Shown: positions 1 to 12,780 of the stretch, piece by piece | Layout: each line of letters begins with the position of its first letter | Position numbering within the stretch: the stretch's first letter is position 1 | NCBI GenBank assembly: GCA_949300325.1 | Contig: CASGDQ010000021.1 | Span: 1 to 64,000, forward strand | DNA length: 64,000 bases | Direction of reading: 5' to 3' | Source: an uncultured Spirochaetales bacterium | GTDB taxonomy: Bacteria > Spirochaetota > Spirochaetia > Sphaerochaetales > Sphaerochaetaceae | Position numbers and translations under genes: made by a program | The notes under the pieces: generated by a model | What the model was told of the DNA's origin: nothing | The model's input: the letters and a program-made list of their open reading frames with translations, nothing else | Databases searched by the model: none

Positions 1-67
1 AAGGGCAAAGCCTAACAGTAGGGTCTTACCCCCCCCCCATAAGAATCGAACGTCTGATTTTTTCCAT
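1..67 (-). CDS. 5' end of an exported-protein gene with a G tract, currently out of frame (runs off left edge)
   Basis: An ATG at 67 (minus strand) follows a strong AGGAGG site at about 72-77. It reads MEKIRRSILMGGG and then meets TAA at 26-28, straight after a run of ten G (minus strand). With nine or twelve G the frame stays open to the window edge and reads MEKIRRSILMGGGKTLLLGF, a basic stretch followed by a hydrophobic stretch as in a signal peptide or membrane anchor. With eleven G it stops six codons after the tract. The gene is therefore seen in a switched-off state, or the assembly has miscounted the homopolymer. The product cannot be named because only its start lies in the window. 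Surface proteins are the usual class under this kind of control, but that is inference. Confidence 0.55.
29..38. repeat. Homopolymer, ten C (ten G on the minus strand)
   Basis: Uninterrupted run of ten C. It lies 9 codons into the minus-strand frame that starts at 67. Tracts of this length and composition are known sites of slipped-strand mispairing in phase-variable genes of Neisseria, Campylobacter and Treponema. Confidence 0.9.
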
Positions 68-666: not shown

Positions 667-876
667 TCAATTGTCTCCTTCTGCTTTCTTATGGTCTTTC
701 TTGCCCGGAACCCAGTTCTCCACGGTCTTGAGTGGGATGCCGAACTCCTCCGCCGTCTTGCGGAACTGTCTTAAATACTTCTTTGGCGTTTTTGCCTCCT
801 TTGCATTATACCCTTGGTTTTTTGTGTCCACTAAAATTGGAATATTCACACAAGATGTCAGGTTTTTTATTGACAT
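667..876 (-). pseudogene. Probable remnant of an XRE-type helix-turn-helix gene
   Basis: The frame gives 69 residues. Residues 38-59 contain FRKTAEEFGIPLKTVENW, which fits the core of small XRE-like HTH proteins (usual pattern: tFaeyFGIPLRTlqNWE.G.R). The N-terminal third does not look like that family, and the C-terminus breaks down right after the recognition helix into a lysine-rich tail. There is no ribosome-binding site: the bases upstream of the ATG are the twelve-C face of the 881-892 tract, and the start codon overlaps the plus-strand -35 box at 870-875. I read it as decayed. A functional short DNA-binding protein is possible but less likely. Confidence 0.35.
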
Positions 877-901
877 GGATGGGGGGGGGGGGTGCTGTAT
901 C
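870..901 (+). promoter_or_regulatory. Candidate phase-variable promoter with a G tract in the spacer
   Basis: TTGACA at 870-875 is a perfect -35 hexamer. The next 17 bases are TGGAT plus twelve G. Weak -10 candidates follow at 895-900 (CTGTAT) and 896-901 (TGTATC), which puts the present spacer at 19-20 bases. Loss of two or three G would bring it to the optimal 17. Control of promoter strength by spacer G tracts is known for porA and opc in Neisseria and for G tracts near tpr-family promoters in Treponema pallidum. Transcription would serve the 43-residue ORF at 925. Confidence 0.5.
881..892. repeat. Homopolymer, twelve G
   Basis: Uninterrupted run of twelve G, the second long G/C homopolymer within 900 bases. 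It sits between a perfect TTGACA and the leader of the small ORF at 925. Confidence 0.9.
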
Positions 902-924
902 TTCTGAGTTTATAGGAGGGGAAT

Positions 925-1056
925 ATGAAGAAGTATTCAAAGCCTGAGATCAGTATTGTTGAATTTGAAAAAGATGATGTTGTCATGATTGTGACGACAA
1001 GCAGTTTCACCGGCGAGCACGAAGGATTCGAAGATGGAGGCACAGTCGACTGGTGA
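925..1056 (+). CDS. 43-residue peptide of unknown function
   Basis: ATG at 925 follows a strong TAGGAGGGG site (913-921) at good spacing. The product runs from MKKYSKPEISIVEFEKDDVV, through a Thr/Ser-rich centre (VTTSSFTG), to an acidic, Gly-rich tail ending DGGTVDW. It has no signal peptide and no Cys. Its shape (KKY-KPEI start, acidic core, TTS, then a DGG/DW tail) resembles short peptides of unknown role that I know from gut Firmicutes genomes; whether they are RiPP precursors is not established. No modification enzyme lies nearby. The good start site and codon structure suggest it is real. Its promoter carries the G12 tract, so expression may vary between cells. Confidence 0.55.
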   Translation: MKKYSKPEISIVEFEKDDVVMIVTTSSFTGEHEGFEDGGTVDW

Positions 1057-10695: not shown

Positions 10696-12780
10696 ATGGA
10701 AACAGTTGCAGATTATTTCGGTTCCTTGGTTTTCAATGACGAGACTATGCGCTTACGTCTTCCAAAAGATGTATATAGGCAGCTTATGCAGACCGTACAG
10801 GAAGGAAAGGACCTGGATTTGAATATAGCAAACGCGGTCGCCCATGCCATGAAATGCTGGGCTATCGAGAACGGCTGCTCTTATTATACCCACTGGTTCC
10901 AGCCCATGACTGGGATAACTGCGGAAAAGCATGAATCCTTCATCCGCCCGGTTCCGGGGGGAAAGGTGATAATGGAATTTTCTGGAAAAGAGCTTGTGAA
11001 GGGAGAACCGGATGCATCCTCATTTCCTTCCGGCGGCCTCAGAGCTACTTTTGAGGCCAGGGGATACACCGCCTGGGATCCGACCAGCTATGCTTTTATC
11101 AAGGATGATACGCTTTGCATACCTACCGCATTCTGTTCCTATTCCGGGGAGGTCCTTGATAAGAAGACCCCGCTTTTGAGGAGCATGGAGGCGATCTCCA
11201 ACGAATCGTTAAAAATACTGCATCTATTCGGCAATGAGGATGTTAAGCGGGTCGGAACGACAGTCGGCCCTGAGCAGGAATACTTCCTTATCGACAAGGA
11301 GGATTATTCCAAAAGGGAGGATCTTGTATTGACCGGCAGGACCCTTCTTGGAGCCAGAAGTCCTAAAGGGCAGGAGATGAACGACCATTATTTTGGTGCG
11401 ATCAGGACCAGGGTCAGCGCTTTTATGCATGATCTTGACAAGGAGCTCTGGAAACTCGGCATCAACAGCAAGACCAGCCATAACGAGGTTGCGCCGTGCC
11501 AGCATGAGATGGCCCCTGTCTATTGCACTACGAATGTCGCAGTTGATCACAACCAGCTCACAATGGAGCTGATGAAGAAGATTGCGGAAAAGCATGGCCT
11601 TGCCTGTCTCCTTCATGAAAAGCCGTTCAAGGGTGTGAATGGATCTGGAAAACATAACAATTGGTCCTTGAGCACCGATACAGGCGAAAACCTTCTTGAT
11701 CCGGGGGATAATCCTAGGGAAAACATTCAGTTCCTATTGTTCCTGACGGCTGTGATAAAAGCAGTTGATGAGTATCAGGATCTTTTGCGTTTGAGTGCCG
11801 CAAGTGCTGGAAATGATCATAGGCTTGGCGCCAGCGAGGCTCCTCCTGCCATCGTTTCAATCTTCATAGGTTCCGATCTTGAGGATATCCTGGACTCGAT
11901 TTCCTTTGATAAGGAATCTTCTGGAAAGATGAATGAGAGGATGGGCTTCGGAGTGCATGCCCTTCCATATATCGCCAGGGATACAAGCGACAGGAATAGG
12001 ACGAGCCCGATGGCTTTCACGGGAAATAAATTCGAATTCAGGATGCTGGGCTCCTCGTTCAGCGTCTCCGGACCGAATATCGTGCTCAACACGATTGTTG
12101 CCAATTCCCTTTCCGAATTTTATGAGGAGCTGAAGGATGAGAAGGATATCAAGGCTGCAGTCCTTGAGCTGATCAAGAGGGAATATGCGGCGCATAAGAG
12201 GATAATATTCAATGGCAACAACTACTCGGAGGACTGGGTCAAGGAGGCTGAGAACAGAGGCTTGCTCAATTTGCGCACAGCCCCTGAGGCGTATGATACA
12301 TTCCTCTTGAAAAAGAATATGGATGTCTTTGCGAAATTCCATATCTACAGCGCCATCGAAATCCATTCCCGTTACGAGATCGTGAACGAGGAGTATTCGA
12401 AGACTATACATATCGAAGCTCTGACGATGATCGATATGATAAGGCGCATGGTCCTTCCTGCTGTGGAGAAGTACACATCTTCACTGGCTCTGGGGCTGGA
12501 AGCGAAGTTCAAGGTCAGCAAGGCTCCTTTTAAAAGCGAGAGGCAGCTTTTAGATAAGCTGTCGTCCCTTACCGATGAGCTGGATGCCGCTGTTGCAAAG
12601 CTGGATTCGGTCACAGCCGCCGCTGAGAAGTATGCAGGATCCTCGCTAAGCCATTATTCATGCAAGATAATAATACCGGAAATGGATGAGGTGAGAAGAA
12701 TTTCCGATGAGATCGAGCTTCTGATGCCATCCGAGTGCTGGCCCTATCCGACGTATGCGAAAATGCTTTATTATATCTGA
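10696..12780 (+). CDS. glnN: Glutamine synthetase type III
   Basis: 694 residues from the ATG at 10696, which has GGGAG five bases upstream; the longer frame from 10468 would cross the divergent cstA promoter. GSIII hallmarks are present: HWFQPMTGITAEKHESF and FPSGGLRATFEARGYT (N-terminal signature), GPEQEYFLID (metal Glu), NEVAPCQHEMAPVY, GVNGSGKHNNWS and RLGASEAPPAIVS. The enzyme makes glutamine from glutamate, ammonia and ATP in the cytoplasm as a large dodecamer and is typical of Bacteroidetes, spirochaetes and some Clostridia. Single gene, divergent from cstA. Confidence 0.95.
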   Translation: METVADYFGSLVFNDETMRLRLPKDVYRQLMQTVQEGKDLDLNIANAVAHAMKCWAIENGCSYYTHWFQPMTGITAEKHESFIRPVPGGKVIMEFSGKELVKGEPDASSFPSGGLRATFEARGYTAWDPTSYAFIKDDTLCIPTAFCSYSGEVLDKKTPLLRSMEAISNESLKILHLFGNEDVKRVGTTVGPEQEYFLIDKEDYSKREDLVLTGRTLLGARSPKGQEMNDHYFGAIRTRVSAFMHDLDKELWKLGINSKTSHNEVAPCQHEMAPVYCTTNVAVDHNQLTMELMKKIAEKHGLACLLHEKPFKGVNGSGKHNNWSLSTDTGENLLDPGDNPRENIQFLLFLTAVIKAVDEYQDLLRLSAASAGNDHRLGASEAPPAIVSIFIGSDLEDILDSISFDKESSGKMNERMGFGVHALPYIARDTSDRNRTSPMAFTGNKFEFRMLGSSFSVSGPNIVLNTIVANSLSEFYEELKDEKDIKAAVLELIKREYAAHKRIIFNGNNYSEDWVKEAENRGLLNLRTAPEAYDTFLLKKNMDVFAKFHIYSAIEIHSRYEIVNEEYSKTIHIEALTMIDMIRRMVLPAVEKYTSSLALGLEAKFKVSKAPFKSERQLLDKLSSLTDELDAAVAKLDSVTAAAEKYAGSSLSHYSCKIIIPEMDEVRRISDEIELLMPSECWPYPTYAKMLYYI

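Follow-up and report, generated by a model that had tools for sequence, protein, structure and literature searches.

The question raised by this locus is whether a run of twelve guanines inside a promoter can act as a genetic switch for the small gene behind it, and what such a switch would control. The window, the whole stretch of 64,000 nucleotides that was analysed, comes from an uncultured Spirochaetales bacterium. As a preliminary description had recorded, it carries a perfect TTGACA (870-875) followed by G12 (881-892) and, downstream, a 43-codon ORF (925-1056) that opens with ATG at 925; the letters 3′ of the tract read TGCTGTATCTTCTG and then AGGAGGGG up to this ATG. The homopolymer thus lies between a -35 and a -10 position, as in phase-variable promoters whose tract is located in the spacer. 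This mechanism class is already known. The poly-G tract of tp0126, which encodes an OmpW homologue in Treponema pallidum, lies between the -35 and -10 elements and transcription is best at a spacer of 17, while in porA of Neisseria meningitidis the length of a poly-G spacer in the same place controls transcription; both promoters have been tested experimentally (PMC7864442). The features of the locus are collected in Table 1.

Table 1. Features of the poly-G promoter and its surroundings, in window coordinates
Feature	Position	Strand	Basis
Divergent small HTH-like ORF, 5′ part and upstream region, apparently decayed	743..858	-	blastn, common to contig C6
Promoter cassette, upstream flank to Shine-Dalgarno	859..919	+	blastn, 87% identical to contig C31 cassette
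-35 element, perfect TTGACA	870..875	+	sequence; aligned in 74 distinct family sites
Spacer, 17 bp, TGGAT (876-880) and G12 (881-892)	876..892	+	sequence; family spacer counts
-10 position by family rule, TGCTGT, degenerate	893..898	+	family alignment; PWM score -2.61
Alternative -10, TATCTT, good hexamer	898..903	+	PWM score 4.92
Shine-Dalgarno-like AGGAGGG	914..920	+	sequence
43-aa peptide gene MKKYSKPEISIVEFEKDDVVMIVTTSSFTGEHEGFEDGGTVDW, predicted RiPP-type precursor, YxxPxI leader motif	925..1056	+	paralogues; cassette neighbours

Long G tracts are rare in this DNA. Tracts of at least 9 G account for six overlapping 9-mer matches in the window, in two tracts, against 0.41 expected, a count that none of 100 shuffles reached. 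The source genome, a draft that is 86% complete, contains 12 such tracts in 2.32 Mb. Tract lengths here and below are those given in MAG assemblies, where an error of one base is possible. A plain promoter scan of the window site called no promoter there and Rfam gave no match to an RNA element neighbouring it.

We searched for the arrangement in 139 genomes of the family to which the window belongs (Spirochaetota; taken to be Sphaerochaetaceae, as the order contains one family here), using the reversed pattern as a control. With the -10 element left free, TTGACA-N2-8-G8 is matched in 37 of the 139 genomes, and the reversed control gives 2 matches. We inspected 74 distinct sites and counted the geometry in those 64 whose tract is preceded by four bases or more. 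In 55 of these, or 55 of 63 without the window site (P ~1e-82 for the latter relative to base composition), TAnnnT follows the tract immediately; at other offsets it occurs 0-5 times. Position 2 of the hexamer behind the tract is A in 61 of the 64 sites and position 6 is T in 59, and the distance between the -35 and -10 elements is 15, 16 or 17 bp in 57 of them. When all these elements are combined in the tight pattern TTGACA-N7-10-G8-TAnnnT, 99 sites are found in 38/139 family genomes and none with the reversed control. Relaxing the -35 element to TTGA reveals at least one site in 33 of the 48 congeneric genomes. The start codon of the family sites usually lies 22-45 nt 3′ of the tract and is preceded by a Shine-Dalgarno sequence. 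Named genomes of several other phyla also carry the pattern, among the matches listed by a scan run without a control.

The recurrent design therefore consists of TTGACA, a short variable stretch, poly-G and, immediately 3′ of it, a TAnnnT -10 element. If the tract slips within a population, the spacing of the two boxes would move around its optimum of 16-17 bp, which would switch transcription from its predicted start. Near-matching promoters of different genomes have unequal numbers of G (G8 and G9 in L052 and L056; G8 and G10 in L087 and L089), which fits with tract instability between genomes. A second class of sites was also observed, in which TTGACA-N2-G8/9 is followed by a conserved TGTGGTAGCACTA...GGTAGTG that possibly forms a hairpin (L049, L057, L061, L066, L079, L096). 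These sites are located 72-88 nt before the start codon of mostly lipoprotein-type genes and show no clear -10 element at normal spacing.

The preliminary description had proposed a phase-variable promoter with its tract in the spacer, and this class assignment is right, since the roughly 100 directional family sites match the spacer poly-G type of tp0126 and porA. The register that it proposed has to be revised. It had placed the -10 candidate two or three bases too far away, which would be true only with TGTATC as the -10 element. Because the family -10 starts directly after the tract, the window spacer at G12 has the optimal length of 17 and not 19-20. TGTATC is present as letters (896-901, spacer 20) but was rejected as the -10 element: it is among the worst family hexamers by PWM and stands at the wrong offset, three bases downstream of the family position. 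The hexamer which does stand at spacer 17 is TGCTGT. It has G instead of A at position 2 and a low PWM score, with 59 of the 63 hexamers of the family -10 set scoring higher and 4 lower. Since this A has been lost, the score is low and the better hexamer TATCTT is at spacer 22, the promoter in the window, to judge from its letters, probably has little or no activity at present.

Overall, we think it fairly likely that the window site represents a recurrent family design of sigma-70-type promoter that is phase-variable, placed before a RiPP-like peptide gene, in a copy that is probably weak or silent now. Its relatives within the same genome bear on how this copy arose. Over 61 bp the promoter cassette is 87% identical to one on contig C31, which has G11, an abutting TATTGT and a spacer of 16, and which precedes a DUF2589 gene (Pfam PF11655, 3e-37). 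The upstream part (743-890) is shared at 86% with contig C6 (blastn), where the promoter reads TTGACA-G11-TAGACT before a lipoprotein-type gene. The window cassette was not found in viral contigs. The change from TATTGT on C31 to TGCTGT in the window, including the lost A at position 2, might mean that a decayed relic lies in the window: a C31-type cassette would have been duplicated and the copy would then have lost its -10 element, leaving a tract that is unstable but inconsequential. The apparently decayed HTH-like ORF directly upstream of the promoter and the isolation of the peptide gene, with no maturation genes among its near neighbours, point the same way. Against it, TTGACA, the 17-bp spacer, the Shine-Dalgarno sequence and an intact ORF with its conserved residues are all retained; we regard the relic as unlikely.

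A different register is more improbable still. TATCTT, which scores well among the family hexamers and occurs in both the C31 cassette and the window, could be the -10 element of a promoter that is OFF at G12, where its spacer is 22, and ON near G6-G8 (the spacer would be 17 at G7). This is close to the idea of the preliminary description but uses a different hexamer. It runs against the abutting -10 of 55 of the 63 other sites and against the C31 cassette, where an abutting TATTGT stands at spacer 16, and a shift of 4-6 Gs would be a large slippage step. Homopolymers are error-prone in assemblies, and in a draft of this completeness the tract might be an artefact, or neutral, with no regulatory role. 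We consider this very improbable in view of the directional enrichment (99 sites against 0) in independent genomes, the fixed position of the tract relative to both promoter boxes and the scarcity of tracts of 9 or more G in the source genome. The phase-variable promoter of recurrent design remains our preferred reading.

The genes behind the promoter class are strongly biased. By a crude regular-expression test, a lipobox with a hydrophobic N-terminus is present in 49 of 62 downstream ORFs compared to 4 of the 59 ORFs in the window that reach 100 aa (Fisher P ~7e-17, with sites within one genome not fully independent). The window gene is not a lipoprotein gene: it encodes a 43-aa peptide without a lipobox, and that most class members drive lipoproteins counts against the preferred reading. 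Like the tp0126 and tpr promoters of T. pallidum, a member of the same phylum, the sites described here carry poly-G of varying length within a promoter and would control surface proteins. In contrast to these, they form a whole promoter set with fixed geometry, the tract abutting TAnnnT, mostly before lipoprotein genes of uncultured spirochaetes, and the window copy precedes a RiPP-like peptide gene. porA is a different gene in another phylum, and it is one well-studied locus, whereas the cassette described here is repeated. Uncultured spirochaetes which, by their record names, are apparently gut-associated carry about 100 promoters with poly-G in the spacer, most of them in front of genes for lipoproteins. 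In the literature searched, itself incomplete, we found no spacer poly-G promoters on a comparable scale in this group and nothing on phase variation in Sphaerochaeta.

The 43-aa peptide belongs to a small family. Three paralogues are present in the same genome, two on contig C24 and one on contig C14, and the four members share 14 invariant columns, including Y4, K6, P7, E8, G38, G39 and W43. No homologue was found outside this genome among 296 sampled Spirochaetota genomes, a search of the window's family gave one weak match only, and Pfam and NCBIfam gave none. All four members carry the leader motif Y4-x-K-P7-x-I/V9, a conservative variant of the YxxPxL motif found in the leaders of lasso precursors that occur with PqqD-like RRE proteins (PMC10368454). 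The C24 pair adjoins ORFs with matches to HprK (weak), PqqD (1.6e-16), an S24-like peptidase (weak), an ABC transporter and NTP_transf_5 (2.7e-49). It therefore has the arrangement of PqqD-dependent RiPP systems in the broad sense, a precursor adjoining a PqqD/RRE protein and an exporter, and the position of these two members beside the cassette suggests that they are RiPP-type precursors. This HprK-like/PqqD/S24-like/ABC/NTP_transf_5 cassette, with its two convergent small peptide genes, occupies L249:7467-11627 and 11665-11971. Among 138 family genomes searched, NTP_transf_5 occurs in three, this one and two of other genera; the peptide family and cassette are therefore confined, within the genus, to this genome.

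The C24 cassette resembles the bsf-type lasso clusters (PMC10368454) in its YxxPx[L/I] leader, PqqD-like protein, ABC transporter, nucleotidyltransferase and weak HprK-like match. Unlike them, it has no adjoining cyclase-like ORF (five cassette ORFs searched with Pfam) and no B2 protease above the curated cut-off, a Transglut_core3 match below the cut-off lying ~6 kb away; core composition also differs, and the window copy of the peptide is on another contig than the cassette. Membership of the 43-aa family among the lasso peptides was rejected, as neither a cyclase beside the cassette nor a B2 leader peptidase above the cut-off was seen, and because no cyclase was seen we class the peptide only as RiPP-like. 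Judging from gene neighbourhood, the products of the C24 cassette (PqqD, peptidase, ABC transporter and nucleotidyltransferase) probably mature the family, the window copy being an orphan.

The paralogue on contig C14 (L010) has a G10 tract (946-955) in an N-terminal extension; with this number of Gs the gene is out of frame. Switching of this gene would, from its layout, be translational rather than transcriptional, within the same peptide family. We tentatively raise the possibility, although we hold it to be doubtful, that a commensal spirochaete phase-varies its RiPP precursors in two poly-G ways, through the promoter spacer in the window and through the reading frame on C14, so that individual cells would export different modified peptides, as part of a larger phase-variable repertoire of surface lipoproteins. 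If true, a secreted peptide would also vary among cells, through the association of such promoters with a family of RiPP-like peptides.

Tracts within reading frames were also observed elsewhere. The preliminary description had mentioned a first mechanism within 0.9 kb of the promoter, and there is indeed a G10 tract at 29-38 (- strand), within the coding frame of a 5′ end of lipoprotein type; at this length it is out of frame and reads MEKIRRSILMGGG followed by a stop. Contig C60 has a near-identical 5′ end, also with G10, that appears to read through. On contig C59, a G10 tract (L026, 33587-33596) lies inside an ORF that resembles a DNA adenine methyltransferase and includes an NPPYG motif, which makes phase-variable methylation possible.
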